Shown piece after piece: positions 5,461 through 10,270 of a stretch of 33,060 nucleotides of DNA. Position numbers and translations under genes: made by a program. Origin of the DNA: an uncultured Paraprevotella sp. (GTDB taxonomy: Bacteria > Bacteroidota > Bacteroidia > Bacteroidales > Bacteroidaceae); NCBI GenBank assembly GCA_944321565.1, contig CALULT010000035.1, positions 1-33,060 on the forward strand. Direction: 5' to 3'. The notes below the pieces were generated by a model, which did no database searches, had not been told where the DNA came from, and saw only the letters and a list, made by a program, of their open reading frames with translations. Every line of letters begins with the position of its first letter. Within the stretch, counting starts at the first letter, position 1.

Positions 5461-6183
5461 CTACTTATTTTCTTCTTGTTTTTCCATGCCCTCTCCGCCG
5501 GCTTCGGGGCTCGGGCGCAAAGTGTCGGCGGGCTTGGGGTTGCCATGGGTGTGGCGGTAATGCCGGCAGAGCATCTTCAGTCCGCACGTTTCGCATTTCG
5601 GAGTCCGTGCGGTACAGGTGTAGCGTCCGTGCAGGATGAGCCAGTGGTGGGCTTTGGGGATGAGTGTTTCAGGGAAGTGGCGCACGAGTTGTTTCTCCAC
5701 GCTGTAGGGCGTGGTGCAGGTGGACGGGACGAGGCCGATGCGGTGGCTCACGCGGAACACGTGGGTGTCCACGGCCATGGCGGCCTTGTCGAACACCACG
5801 GCCTGGATGACATTGGCTGTTTTCCGTCCCACGCCGGGCAGCTTGACCAGTTCGTCCAGCTCGGACGGCACTTGGCTGTGATAGTTTTCCACCAACATGC
5901 GCGCCATGCCCACGAGGTGTTTGGCTTTGTTGTTGGGGTAGCTCACGCTGCGGACGTATTCGAAGATGACTTCCGGCGAGGCGGCGGCCATGGCTTCGGG
6001 CGTGGGGTAGTCGCGGAAGAGCGGCGGCGTGATCATGTTGACCCGTTTGTCCGTGCATTGCGCGGAAAGGATGACGGCCACCAGCAGTTGGAATGGGCTG
6101 TCGTAGTGCAATTCGGTTTCGGCCACGGGCATGGCCTTTTCAAAATAGGCCGCGACGCGGTCGTATAGTTCTTGTTTCTTCAT
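5461..6183 (-). CDS. nth: Endonuclease III
   Basis: DNA glycosylase/AP lyase that removes oxidised pyrimidines in base-excision repair. The 240-residue protein shows the helix-hairpin-helix LPGVGRKTANV (115-125) with catalytic Lys121, the catalytic Asp139 in VDTHV, and the four cysteines of the [4Fe-4S] cluster with spacing C-x6-C-x2-C-x5-C (C190, C197, C200, C206). A polar tail of about 28 residues after the cluster is longer than in E. coli Nth (211 residues) and looks disordered. Upstream lies a triplicated promoter-containing repeat, whose nearest copy has a complete promoter core about 60 bp before the ATG. pgk follows downstream behind its own predicted promoter. Confidence 0.97.
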   Translation of the reverse strand: MKKQELYDRVAAYFEKAMPVAETELHYDSPFQLLVAVILSAQCTDKRVNMITPPLFRDYPTPEAMAAASPEVIFEYVRSVSYPNNKAKHLVGMARMLVENYHSQVPSELDELVKLPGVGRKTANVIQAVVFDKAAMAVDTHVFRVSHRIGLVPSTCTTPYSVEKQLVRHFPETLIPKAHHWLILHGRYTCTARTPKCETCGLKMLCRHYRHTHGNPKPADTLRPSPEAGGEGMEKQEENK

Positions 6184-6243: not shown

Positions 6244-6314
6244 GCAAAGATAGTGCAAACCGAGCGCAGAACAAAACAAACCCGTTTGTTTTTTATGCCG
6301 AGGTGCCGCTTATC
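6244..6314 (-). promoter_or_regulatory. 71-bp promoter element, nth-proximal copy
   Basis: On the minus strand this stretch contains TTTG (6275-6272), exactly 19 nt, and TATCTTTG (6252-6245): a full Bacteroidota promoter core oriented to nth, whose ATG is 62 bp further on. The spacer holds the block CTGCGCTCGGTTTGCA. A palindrome AACAAA-CGGG-TTTGTT overlaps the -33 TTTG. The same 71-bp element, with 60 of 71 positions identical by eye, lies before lepA. Confidence 0.75.
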
Positions 6315-6452
6315 TTATGGAAAGATAGTGCAAACCGAGCGCAGAACAAAACAAACCCGTTTGTTTTTTATGCCGAGGTGCCGCTTATCTTATGGAAAGA
6401 TAGTGCAAACCGAGCGCAGAACAAAACAAACCCGTTTGTTTTTTATGCCGAG
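6246..6452. repeat. Tandem 75-bp repeat, 2.76 perfect copies
   Basis: The units start at 6246, 6321 and 6396; the first two are identical over all 75 bp and the third is identical for 57 bp before diverging. Each unit contains most of the promoter element described for nth. In the second and third units the junction changes the last base of the -7 motif, so they read TATCTTTC rather than TATCTTTG on the minus strand and may be weaker. Perfect identity points to recent expansion by slippage or unequal exchange. Confidence 0.95.
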
Positions 6453-6531
6453 AGTCTTCCTGCGCGAGGTGCATGGTGTTTTTCTGCGGGAAAAGCTTTT
6501 TGAATCGCCGGGAATGGCGATTCGGAGCCAG

Positions 6532-6735
6532 GCTTCAAAGTTTCAGAGCCCGGAACACCCAGTTTCAAGGCCTGAAACACCCAGTTTCAAAGCCCGGAAC
6601 ACCCAGTTTCAAAGCCTGAAACACCCAGTTTCAAGTGCCTGAAACACCTAGTTTCAAGTGTCTGGAACACCCAGTTTCAAGTGCTTGGAACACCCAGTTT
6701 CAAGGCCTGAAACACCCAGTTCCAAGGCTTGAAAC
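6532..6735. repeat. 22/23-bp minisatellite with alternating inverted hexamers
   Basis: About eight units with starts at 6552, 6574, 6596, 6618, 6641, 6664, 6687, 6709 and a last partial at 6731, so the period is 22 or 23 bp. Each unit reads roughly TGAAACACCCAGTTTCA followed by AGG, AAG or AGTG and two or three further bases. TGAAAC and its complement GTTTCA alternate along the array, so each hexamer can pair with the next one on either side. The central block CACCCAGTTTC is the best conserved. There are no unique spacers, so it is not a CRISPR array. Confidence 0.9.
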
Positions 6736-6775
6736 AAAAAAAGAAGAGGATGCACCCTTTTCGGGGCACATCCTC
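6735..6775 (-). terminator. Intrinsic terminator of gdhA
   Basis: On the minus strand a 12-bp stem pairs GAGGATGTGCCC (6775-6764) with GGGTGCATCCTC (6757-6746), including two G-T wobbles, around a 6-nt loop, followed by TTCTTTTTTTG. It lies about 30 bp after the gdhA stop and directly beside the minisatellite. Confidence 0.85.
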
Positions 6776-6804
6776 CTTGCTTGTCGTCCTATTGAATGGC
6801 AGGA

Positions 6805-8139
6805 CTATACGATACCCTGTGCCATCATGGCCTTGGCCACCTTCATGAAGCCGGCCACGTTGGCGCCTTTCACGTAGTTGACGTAGCCGTCGGGTTCCGT
6901 ACCGTACTTCACGCAGTTCTGATGGATGTTCTCCATGATGGAGTGCAAGCGGTTGTCCACTTCTTCGGCTGTCCAAGACAGACGCTCTGAGTTTTGGCTC
7001 ATTTCGAGGCCGGATACGGATACGCCGCCGGCGTTAGCTGCCTTGCCCGGAGCATAGAGAATCTTGGCTTCCTGGAACACGCGGATGGCTTCCGGAGTGG
7101 AAGGCATGTTGGCACCTTCGCTCACGGCCATCACGCCGTTGGCCACCAACTTGCGGGCATCGTCACCGTTGATTTCGTTCTGCGTGGCAGAGGGCAGCGC
7201 GATGTCGGCCTTTTCGCCCCAAGGACGTGCGCCTTCCACGTATTTGCAACCGTATTTCTCGGCATATTCGCGGATGCGTCCGCGGTAGAGGTTTTTCAGC
7301 TCCATGATGTAGTCGAGTTTCTCGCGGTCGATGCCGTCCGGGTCATAGATATAGCCGTTGGAGTCGGACATGGTGAGCACCTTGCCGCCCAGTTGCAGCA
7401 CCTTCTCGGCCGTGTATTGGGCCACGTTGCCCGAACCGGAGATGAGGACGGTCTTGCCCTTGAGGTCCGTGCCTTTGGTCTTCAGCATTTCCATGAGGAA
7501 ATACACGTTGCCGTAACCCGTGGCTTCGGGACGGATGAGTGAGCCGCCGAACTCGATGCCCTTGCCCGTGAGCACGCCGCTGAATTCGCGGGTCAGTTTC
7601 TTGTACATGCCGAACATGTAGCCCACTTCGCGTCCGCCTACGCCGATGTCGCCGGCCGGTACGTCGATGTCCGGGCCGATGTGGCGTCCCAGTTCCAGCA
7701 TGAAAGCCTGGCAGAAGCGCATCACCTCGGCGTTGCTCTTGCCGCGCGGGGAGAAGTCGGAACCACCCTTTGCACCGCCCATGGGCAACGTGGTCAGTGA
7801 GTTCTTGAAGGTCTGCTCGAAGGCGAGGAACTTCAGGATGCCCAGGTTCACGGAGCTGTGGAAGCGGATGCCGCCTTTGTAGGGGCCGATGGCGTTGTTG
7901 TGCTGTACGCGGTAGCCCATGTTGGTCTGGATTTGGCCTTTGTCGTCCATCCAAGTCACGCGGAATTGATATACGCGGTCGGGGATGCAGAGGCGTTCGA
8001 TGAGGTTGGCCTTCTCGAACTCCGGATGTTTGTTGTATTCTTCTTCGATGGTGCTGAGCACTTCTTCTACTGCCTGGTGGTACTCAGGCTCGTTGGGGAA
8101 ACGACGTTTCAAGTCTTCCAAAACTTTTTTTGCGTCCAT
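6805..8139 (-). CDS. gdhA: Glutamate dehydrogenase, probably NADP-dependent
   Basis: Catalyses 2-oxoglutarate + ammonium + NAD(P)H to glutamate, the low-affinity route of ammonium assimilation, in the cytoplasm. The 444-residue length fits the hexameric small-subunit family. Substrate-site lysines are visible in GPYKGG (K88), FKNSL (K112) and the catalytic loop LPMGGAKGG (K124), with the catalytic Asp164 in PAGDIGVGG. The Rossmann motif is ISGSGNVAQ (233-241). The residues after the second strand (SDS) suit NADP, but cofactor choice is inferred. It has its own promoter (8235-8265) and a terminator, so it is probably monocistronic. It is divergent from lepA. Confidence 0.96.
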   Translation of the reverse strand: MDAKKVLEDLKRRFPNEPEYHQAVEEVLSTIEEEYNKHPEFEKANLIERLCIPDRVYQFRVTWMDDKGQIQTNMGYRVQHNNAIGPYKGGIRFHSSVNLGILKFLAFEQTFKNSLTTLPMGGAKGGSDFSPRGKSNAEVMRFCQAFMLELGRHIGPDIDVPAGDIGVGGREVGYMFGMYKKLTREFSGVLTGKGIEFGGSLIRPEATGYGNVYFLMEMLKTKGTDLKGKTVLISGSGNVAQYTAEKVLQLGGKVLTMSDSNGYIYDPDGIDREKLDYIMELKNLYRGRIREYAEKYGCKYVEGARPWGEKADIALPSATQNEINGDDARKLVANGVMAVSEGANMPSTPEAIRVFQEAKILYAPGKAANAGGVSVSGLEMSQNSERLSWTAEEVDNRLHSIMENIHQNCVKYGTEPDGYVNYVKGANVAGFMKVAKAMMAQGIV

Positions 8140-8234
8140 GTAATGAAACAGTTTAATTAATAATATTTGTTGGTTTTCGCTCTCTTTTTATCGCAGGCTT
8201 GGGCGTTTTCCCCTTTGCCTTTGTTTTCAGTCGC

Positions 8235-8265
8235 CAAAGTTAGGCATTTAATGTCAAACTGCCAA
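8235..8265 (-). promoter_or_regulatory. Predicted promoter of gdhA
   Basis: On the minus strand TTGG (8265-8262), 19 nt, TAACTTTG (8242-8235). It leaves a leader of about 95 nt before the gdhA ATG at 8139, in which I see no riboswitch-like structure. The 8140-8488 gap between the divergent gdhA and lepA genes holds this promoter, the lepA promoter element, and about 130 bp of A/T-rich sequence with nothing else recognised. Confidence 0.6.
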
Positions 8266-8396
8266 TAAAATCGCGAAAAAAAATCTTTTTGCTATGTTTT
8301 TTTGTTTAAGTGCGAACAAATGCTCTTTGTGGACGGTTCGCGCCAAAATGGGTTCCATGGTTTTGTTTTTCTTTGACTTGCATCCTGTTTTGATAG

Positions 8397-8467
8397 GAAA
8401 AGCTTCACCTCAGCATGAAAAATAAGCGTGTTTATTTTGTCCTGCGCTCGGTTTGCATTATCTTTGC
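8397..8467 (+). promoter_or_regulatory. 71-bp promoter element, lepA copy
   Basis: Single copy of the element that is triplicated before nth. The core is TTTG (8436-8439), 19 nt, TATCTTTG (8459-8466), about 22 bp before the lepA ATG. The spacer block CCTGCGCTCGGTTTGCA is unchanged except at its first base. Relative to the nth copy, the palindrome reads AATAAG-CGTG-TTTATT: one C-G pair has become T-A by changes in both arms, and one A-T has become G-T, so the pairing is kept. Confidence 0.75.
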
Positions 8468-8488: not shown

Positions 8489-10270
8489 ATGAAGAACATC
8501 CGAAATTTTTGTATCATAGCACATATTGATCACGGGAAGTCCACACTGGCTGACCGTTTGCTTGAATATACAGACACCATAAAGATTACCGAAGGGCAAA
8601 TGCTTGACGACATGGACTTGGAGCGGGAGCGTGGCATCACCATCAAGAGCCACGCCATCCAGATGGAGTACATGCACGGGGGCGAGAAGTACGTATTGAA
8701 CCTGATAGACACGCCGGGACACGTGGATTTTTCCTACGAAGTGTCGCGTTCGATTGCGGCCTGCGAGGGGGCGTTGCTCGTGGTGGATGCCACGCAAGGC
8801 GTACAGGCGCAGACGATTTCCAATCTGTATATGGCCATTGACCATGACTTGGAAATCATCCCGGTGATTAACAAGTGTGACATGGCCAACGCCATGCCCG
8901 AGGAAGTAGAGGACGAGATTATCGACCTGCTGGGTTGCAAACGCGAGGAAATCATTCGTGCTTCCGGGCGCACGGGGCAGGGCGTGGACCAGATATTAGA
9001 GGCCGTGGTGGAGCGCATCCCTTGCCCGAAAGGTGACGAAGACGCGCCGTTGCAGGCCTTGATTTTCGACTCCGTGTTCAATTCCTTCCGGGGCATCATT
9101 GCCTATTTCAAAATCGTGAACGGCAGCATCCGTTCGGGCGACCGTGTGCAGTTCATCAACACGGGGAAAGAATACACGGCGGACGAAATCGGCGTGTTGA
9201 AGATGGACATGTCGCCACGCGAGGCTTTGCACTGCGGCGACGTGGGCTACATCGTCTCCGGCATCAAGACGGCCACGGAGGTGAAGGTGGGCGACACCAT
9301 CACGCATGTGGCCCGCCCGTGCAGCGAGGCCATCGCAGGTTTCGAGGAAGTGAAGCCGATGGTGTTCGCCGGGCTTTACCCCATTGAGACCGAGGATTTC
9401 GAAAACCTCCGTGCATCGTTGGAAAAGCTGCAGCTGAACGATGCCTCGCTCACGTTCCAGCCGGAGTCTTCCGTGGCCTTGGGTTTCGGCTTCCGTTGCG
9501 GGTTCCTGGGCTTGCTCCACATGGAAATCGTGCAGGAGCGTCTTGACCGCGAGTTCAACATGGATGTCATTACGACGGTGCCCAACGTGTCCTACCTTGT
9601 TTATGACAAGCAGGGCGGGGTAAAGGAAGTCCACAACCCGGCGGGGATGCCCGACGTGACGTTGATAGACCACATTGAGGAGCCCTATATCCGGGCTTCT
9701 GTCATCACGACGGCCAACTTCATCGGCCCCATCATGACGTTGTGTCTGGGCAAGCGGGGGGAATTGGTGAAGCAGGAATACATCAGCGGCAACCGGGTGG
9801 AACTGATTTTCAACCTCCCGTTGGGCGAGATTGTCATAGACTTCTACGACAAGCTGAAAAGCATTTCCAAGGGATATGCCTCTTTTGATTACCACCAGGA
9901 TGGTTTCCGGCCTTCCAAGCTGGTCAAGTTGGACATCCTGCTCAACGGCGAACCGGTGGATGCACTGTCCACGCTGACTCATAACGACAATGCCGTGGAT
10001 TTCGGGCGCAGGATGTGCGAGAAACTCAAGGAACTTTTGCCACGCCAGCAGTTCGACATTGCCATCCAGGCCGCCATCGGCGCAAAGATTATCGCCCGCG
10101 AGACGGTGAAACAGTTGCGCAAGGACGTGACGGCCAAGTGCTATGGCGGCGACGTGAGCCGCAAGCGCAAGTTGCTGGAAAAGCAGAAGCGGGGCAAGAA
10201 GCGGATGAAGCAAATCGGCAACGTGGAGGTGCCGCAGAAAGCTTTCCTTGCCGTGCTGAAACTGGATTAA
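8489..10270 (+). CDS. lepA: Elongation factor 4 (back-translocating GTPase LepA)
   Basis: Ribosome-dependent GTPase, paralogue of EF-G, implicated in translation under ionic stress and in initiation or 30S assembly; cytoplasmic or membrane-associated. The start was set at ATG 8489, giving [20 protein letters not shown], because an upstream in-frame ATG would fall inside the promoter. The 593-residue protein has G1 AHIDHGKS (11-18), G2 RGITI (48-52), G3 DTPGH (74-78) and G4 NKCD (128-131). The C-terminal end has the LepA-specific domain with [16 protein letters not shown]. Transcription is expected from the 71-bp element just upstream. The Crp/Fnr gene follows after 30 bp. Confidence 0.97.

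Follow-up and report, generated by a model that had tools for sequence, protein, structure and literature searches.

A probable mobile promoter element with a maintained hairpin in Paraprevotella

Why should two genes of a gut bacterium, nth and lepA, begin with almost the same promoter? The question is raised by a 33,060-nt stretch of DNA (the window) from an uncultured Paraprevotella sp., contig CALULT010000035.1, in which an earlier note had seen a 71-bp promoter-bearing unit before both genes and had proposed a mobile or gene-converted cassette with a hairpin under selection. We compare the unit within the draft genome that holds the window (G000: 3.04 Mb, 105 contigs, the window contig being C35), among 18 Paraprevotella genomes including G000 and the sister species G017, and across Bacteroidales. 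The idea of a cassette with a maintained hairpin stands, carried by copy number, covariation, and empty sites. We judge the unit to be probably a non-autonomous mobile promoter element, 75 bp long here and of other lengths in other species. Empty sites, together with units directly behind a native -7 box or its remnant, are best read as the work of a mobile promoter aimed at -7 boxes.

The unit and its copies

The element consists of a left box (L), a variable hairpin, and a right box (R) that ends in the -7 box TATCTTTG; its R end stands just before a gene. A search of the whole genome for further copies found far more than the two loci. Sites that match the pattern CTCGGTTTGCANTATCTTTG with 3 mismatches or fewer number 45, and the reversed pattern has 0; a covariance model built from 31 copies of this genome (R1) has 47 hits at E <= 1, of which one is another hit read on the opposite strand (about 46 copies). 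The fuller copies, single or arrayed, share a left edge, ATAAGATAAGC, and a right edge, TATCTTTG; weaker copies lack L. The array period is 75, in rare cases 74, and R is the best conserved part.

Within the window, the likeness that had been noticed is real: 6244-6314 (minus strand) and 8397-8467 (plus strand) are equal at 60 of 71 positions, both hold TTTG, 19 nt, and TATCTTTG, and the palindrome changes from AACAAACGGGTTTGTT to AATAAGCGTGTTTATT as described. The additional tandem copies before nth form a period-75 array (6246-6452, 2.8 copies). The 71-bp match is correct, but the natural unit measures 75 bp (6245-6319 minus, 8392-8466 plus), beginning a few bases upstream of the 71-bp stretch, at about (N)ATAAGATAAGC. 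The block CTGCGCTCGGTTTGCA, with 4 exact occurrences in the window (chance expectation 0.49; search with up to 3 mismatches), is indeed conserved, although it is better understood as the element's R end than as a promoter spacer. The features are as follows.

6245..6319, minus strand: gene-proximal nth unit (R1 99.3 bits; pattern match; TAnnTTTG present)
L 6298-6316, hairpin 6265-6297, R 6245-6264, -7 box TATCTTTG 6245-6252, minus strand: parts of the proximal nth unit
6320..6394, minus strand: second tandem nth unit (R1 97.4 bits; 100% identical 75-bp repeat), its -7 box ending in C (TATCTTTC)
6395..6469, minus strand: third nth unit, left end truncated (R1 69.9 bits; 83% over 75 nt; array homology to 6452)
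8392..8466, plus strand: single lepA unit (R1 91.2 bits; missing in 7 alignable relatives)
L 8395-8413, hairpin 8414-8446, R 8447-8466, -7 box TATCTTTG 8459-8466, plus strand: parts of the lepA unit
8360..8391, plus strand: probable decayed native lepA promoter (by eye, from alignment with G017 and of G017 with G005; GATTTTGATTTTCCTTTGG)
5464..6183, minus strand: nth (HhH-GPD, Pfam PF00730), downstream of the array
8489..10270, plus strand: lepA (Pfam LepA_C), downstream of the single unit

Rfam gave 0 matches at gathering score in the window. A separate minisatellite of 22-23 bp (AGTTTCAAGGCCTGAAACACCC, about 9 copies) occupies 6539-6736, upstream of the nth array; by eye, a similar repeat lies beside another copy of the element (stretch L043).

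The copies face genes. An open reading frame starts within 200 nt downstream of 32 of the 34 terminal copies in the genome, in 29 cases at 5-61 nt, and the 2 terminal copies without one abut contig ends; among the 34, one inside a coding region is a chance match with 4 mismatches. The 20 downstream genes looked up in Pfam are mostly unrelated, three of them without a family. They include lepA, nth, prfA, recR, purH-type, ksgA-type, and nadC-type genes, a uracil-DNA glycosylase, an amidase, an alcohol dehydrogenase, and two PDDEXK_2 genes.

The -7 box at the end of R is of the housekeeping type of Bacteroidales. PMC7366714 gives the consensus of the Bacteroides housekeeping factor sigma-ABfr as TAnnTTTG at -7 and TTTG at -33. 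Among 83 distinct L-hairpin-R copies from named genomes, where the -7 box is present by construction of the search, TTTG lies at 17-21 nt spacing in 56 hairpins, against 0-2 in control windows; by its sequence, the unit is thus a predicted sigma-ABfr promoter. The PM2 motif of B. thetaiotaomicron was considered and rejected, since PM2 is described as a -30/-10 motif tied to extracytoplasmic function sigma factors.

Copy number varies widely between relatives. With a general element model (R2, E <= 0.001), genomes of the genus hold 0 to 47 copies: 15 of 18 have at least one, 4 have a single match, 3, including G004 and G009, have none, and the copy-rich relatives are G012 (33), G017 (32), and G008 (22). 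Such a patchy distribution is expected of a mobile element. Across the order, an R2 census found matches in at least 29 of 295 genomes and at least 19 of 178 genera; the counts are lower bounds, owing to strict filters (1e-6) and a maximum of 16 candidates scored per genome. An exact scan for CTCGRYTTGCAYTATCTTTG, with one genome per species, found at least 118 stretches; all 80 of those listed carry Bacteroidales names, and their placement in genera is presumed.

L and R belong together. An L box with up to 4 substitutions lies upstream of 86 of 127 R boxes, against 4 of 127 in a reversed-upstream control. A limit of 6 substitutions is too permissive (42 of 127 in the control), and at that limit 26 of the 127 R boxes still lack L, with 7 more too close to a contig end. 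Conversely, 11 of 165 L boxes in the fetched DNA have no R within 90 nt. Copies of one genome tend to be alike, and variants and array periods (75, 77-80, 88) differ by species within the genus. G003, G006, and G012 (stretches L280, L279, L293, L291) hold a second subfamily, whose L resembles AAGATAGGATGCGGCTCGG and whose R is CTCRCCTTTCACTATCTTTG; R = CTCGCCTTTCACTATCTTTG exemplifies another.

Plasmids and phages were rejected as origins. The first subfamily has no plasmid match (E <= 1) and the second has one, at 84.6%, in Phocaeicola massiliensis. No exact L-R pattern was found in viral contigs. Matches in a phage collection comprise 14 and 10 records for the first and second subfamily, all named "Bacteriophage sp." and from faecal samples; the one record inspected is marked UNVERIFIED and is unannotated.

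Empty sites and the point of insertion

Orthologous promoters with and without the unit can be compared at three genes. At lepA, 2 of the 17 genomes read (G000, G017) carry the unit, 7 (G001, G002, G005, G008, G012, G014, G015) have a native promoter that can be aligned and lacks the unit, and the other eight show no unit by eye within 170 nt. G017 reads GATTTTGATTTTCCTTTGG, decayed -7 box, unit, CATAGCATTTTTTG, and G005 reads GATTTTGATTTTCCTTTGGTTTGCACTATCTTTG-CACTACATTTTT; the two share their first 19 bases, and the unit starts where the native -7 box would end. Alignment suggests that the insertion probably pushed the native lepA promoter upstream, to 8360..8391 of the window. At the purH-type gene, the same two of 15 genomes hold the element and 13 lack it, G014 being readable for 57 nt only; in G001, G002, G004, G009, G012, and G015, TTCGTATCTTTG abuts the leader. 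One unit follows TCGTATCTTTT in G017 (register: behind TATCTTTT), and two follow TTCGTATTTTTG in G000 (register: behind TATTTTTG). At prfA, G000 has four units and G017 three, with none seen within 190 nt in the other 15 of 17 genomes; the G000 array stands behind an intact GCTATCTTTG (-7 box TATCTTTG). For nth, G012 and G014 carry sequence that by eye resembles a diverged element. The G017 stretches were picked for element content, so that sites shared with G000 there are an unfair sample.

The native leader follows the unit. Its length is 22 and 21 nt with the unit and 23 and 22 nt without at lepA, 30 and 27 against 30 and 29 nt at the purH-type gene, and 20 against 21 and 19 nt at prfA; leaders with and without the element thus agree within 3 nt (three or four genomes compared per gene). 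Wherever the native promoter is readable (lepA, the purH-type gene, prfA of G000), the unit lies at the 3' end of the -7 box and nowhere else in the leader; an element with its own promoter might be tolerated elsewhere in the leader too. As far as sequence comparison can establish it, the unit has inserted behind -7 boxes at three genes, arrays have changed in length, and pairing has been maintained.

The wider set of copies points to the same position. An exact TAnnTTTG occurs within 40 nt before L in 29 of the 83 named-genome copies, against 0-7 of 74-83 further upstream. Among 47 upstream TAnnTTT boxes, 19 are preceded by R-like sequence, and hence by an older unit, and 28 are not; these native-like boxes include TACCTTTG, TAACTTTG, TAAATTTG, and TATATTTG. 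Within G000, an exact TAnnTTT lies within 8 nt of L in only 4 of 19 first copies, and several others retain, by eye, a CTTT or TTTG remnant.

The base after TATCTTT differs between terminal and internal units, the full box being mostly retained by the array unit nearest the gene. The comparison excludes the named-genome copies, which were selected for a final G. Among distinct copies of G000, G follows in 30 of 32 terminal and 3 of 11 internal units, the final G being replaced by C, T, or A in 2 and 8; the figures for G in G017 are 23 of 24 and 3 of 7. This contrast suggests a cut between TATCTTT and G. An upstream R copy is often one base short in its -7 box, for example TTGCACTACTTTG (stretches L093, L094, L110, L117, L126, L165, L175).

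A hairpin kept by compensatory change

The earlier note placed a hairpin over the -33 region; the hairpin is there, but it spans the entire unit. L and R are imperfect inverted repeats that pair around the variable hairpin, so that the unit forms one long hairpin with ends AAGATARGC...GCAYTATCTTTG: a 7-bp outer stem, an internal loop, a bulge, and the variable terminal hairpin. A GCK/A loop and a TT bulge are conserved unpaired features.

Its covariation bears out, within and between genomes, the compensatory change first seen in the two window units. Between L and R, the 83 hairpins range from 22 to 46 nt and diverge widely in sequence, and most still pair; the first hairpin pair is Watson-Crick in 73 of 83 (expected 28.1), as A-T 33, C-G 28, G-C 9, and T-A 3. 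Copies of G000 give 18 double-changed cells against 3.8 when shuffled, and 8 double-changed pairs against 3.0 (0/500 for both). A between-genome alignment of 55 copies (A3) gives 173 double-changed cells against 56.5 shuffled, and a covariation score of 0.310 against 0.127 (0/500 for both). Such counts are inflated by relatedness, and template switching can mimic selection. Three L/R positions of A3 illustrate the exchange: L13/R6 (A-U 29, G-C 24, G-U 2) and L14/R5 (C-G 40, U-A 13, U-G 2) have zero mismatches, and L7/R12 has G-C 46, A-U 8, other 1. At the orthologous purH-type site, G000 and G017 differ in the palindrome by compensated changes, the remaining unit being nearly identical.

Further controls concern register and stability. 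Both hairpin structures, including the correct outer register, were drawn after inspecting the sequences; sliding the partner on A3 cuts pairing from 89% to 38-52%. Outer hairpin pairs in the wrong register gave no signal (3.39 in self against 3.30 in chimera), while the folding energy in the same comparison is -5.28 in self and -2.58 in chimera. A small second hairpin, hp1, has a stem of at least 3 pairs in 60% of 52 copies, against 27% of chimeras and 35% of shuffles; it is located at the expected start of transcription from the upstream box. Folding of five copies as single-stranded DNA is modest, with z between -1.5 and -3.3 in four.

Spread, alternatives, and meaning

How might such an element move? 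The 75-bp arrays are made by further units that stand at the R end of an earlier one. The other steps that we propose are conditional. Transcription would begin from R, which fits the -7/-33 consensus, and the old -7 box would decay because it is redundant. The folded hairpin, as single-stranded or extruded DNA, may be the substrate of a putative recombinase or transposase; its structure would then be kept because only foldable copies spawn new ones, and the promoter part would be kept by the gene. It is conceivable, though we think it unlikely, that a putative enzyme inserts the folded single strand into promoter DNA melted by RNA polymerase, the open complex being the target.

Two candidate movers were rejected. 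Y1/RAYT was found in 1 of 18 genus genomes (E <= 0.001) and not in the copy-rich G017, G012, or G008; the one Y1_Tnp (RAYT-like) gene found in G000 itself (stretch L209, G000:C1:22268) has no element in the surrounding 3.2 kb. Reading frames near that gene repeat each other, which suggests a separate repeat family unrelated to the element. For the PDDEXK_2 nuclease, gene number does not track element copy number: G001 has 10 genes and 1 element, and G006, G007, G010, G013, and G016 have 5-9 elements with no PDDEXK_2 gene found. By coordinates, PD-(D/E)XK (PDDEXK_2) genes stand directly behind an element in 2 of 13 cases in G000 (C16, C7) and 6 of 12 in G017 (C5, C11, C15, C26, C71, C97), perhaps carried along by gene duplication.

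Several observations weigh against a mobile promoter aimed at -7 boxes. No mobilising enzyme was found among the two families searched (Y1_Tnp, PDDEXK_2). Empty sites are known at three loci only, and each time the same two sister species carry the element. The native lepA -7 box is decayed in both genomes, so that the register rests on the 19 identical preceding bases; prfA of G017 has no visible -7 box before its first unit, and the flank resembles the end of a coding region; the nth flanks are unalignable beyond G017. Target duplication is inseparable from the element's own R end, a -7 box standing on both sides. Because the genomes are drafts, array lengths may be misassembled. On the side of structure, 2 of 5 covariation measures on A3 are weak (further pair types 38 against 38.7; pairs changed on both sides 14 against 11.7, 38/500), post hoc drawing favours the structures over slid controls, and the lepA copy folds no better than its shuffles (z 0.33).

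The main rival needs no enzyme, and we give it a real if clearly smaller chance: short identical -7 boxes would exchange sequence by template switching or gene conversion. Every arrayed unit has TATCTTT on either side, and a repair tract starting in one of these and ending in the following one would add a single unit at any such box. Template-switch mutation perfects palindromes, so that covariation would need no selection. Sequence is shared at the insertion point (roughly the 8-mer for the purH-type gene, some 17 nt for lepA), array lengths differ between the sister species, the G000 nth units share substitutions missing from G017 (3 and 2 units), and neither of the two enzyme families searched yielded a mover. 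Palindrome correction alone, however, leaves unexplained the conserved GCK/A loop, the TT bulge, and the cross-genus covariation of L and R, and the native-like upstream boxes TACCTTTG, TAACTTTG, TAAATTTG, and TATATTTG have only TAnnTTTG in common.

A host regulatory site, with a regulator bound at the palindrome or at L and R and with the copies as its regulon, fits the conservation of R in G000 and the orientation of copies toward genes. We regard it as improbable: the downstream genes examined are unrelated and three of them have no element in other species of the genus, copies range from 0 to 47 within the genus with seven of 18 genomes at none or one, and hairpin sequence varies while pairing persists. 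A binding factor such as the earlier note suggested was not found, no search aimed at one having been made. Least probable of all is an RNA structure transcribed from the upstream -7 box and acting in the 5' leader: the covariation could reflect RNA pairing, and a -7-like box often lies upstream, but these boxes are often broken (TTGCACTACTTTG; non-G in 8 of 11 internal G000 units against 2 of 32 terminal), and hp1 at the expected start from that box points to DNA.

Several known systems come close to the element. Matus-Garcia, Nijveen, and van Passel reportedly described putative mobile promoters, which are almost identical in sequence and precede unrelated genes in the same genome. By sequence, our element likewise appears as homologous promoter sequence before non-homologous genes; it differs from those promoters, as reportedly described, by its defined ends, covarying hairpin, -7 insertion point, and empty sites. 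Integron attC sites carry GTTRRRY and RYYYAAC boxes. By analogy, the element may be compared with them in its 7-bp outer stem, internal loop, bulge, and variable terminal hairpin, but it lacks these boxes (ends AAGATAR / YTATCTT), and a gene cassette was not seen.

REPINs and BIMEs, mobilised by RAYT according to parts of PMC8049555 (which cites Matus-Garcia 2012 and van Passel 2014), share inverted conserved ends, a variable middle, a hairpin, extragenic location, and per-genome populations; our element differs in that RAYT occurs in 1 of 18 genomes, and in that it carries a promoter and sits at promoter boxes. BrickBuilt and other miniature inverted-repeat transposable elements (MITEs) of P. 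gingivalis are also multi-copy intergenic elements of Bacteroidales, with internal repeats and reported promoter capability; the portions of PMC4596501 consulted describe 23-nt repeats and IS5-type ends such as GAGACCTTTGCA for BrickBuilt, which our element lacks. The terminal inverted repeats of a MITE are present, imperfectly, since L pairs with R. No description of the element was found in the open-access literature, by element k-mers or by topic, most subscription papers lying outside this scope.

Promoters are usually thought to evolve by point mutation. Here, housekeeping genes of gut Bacteroidales appear to have had their native promoters replaced by one structured element, in bursts that vary among congeneric species. 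Regulatory rewiring in Bacteroidales would thereby become traceable copy by copy, and the element raises the question of what recognises the hairpin and why insertions fall at the -7 box. If insertion into the open complex were true, this mobile element would be exploiting the opened promoter as its landing site.

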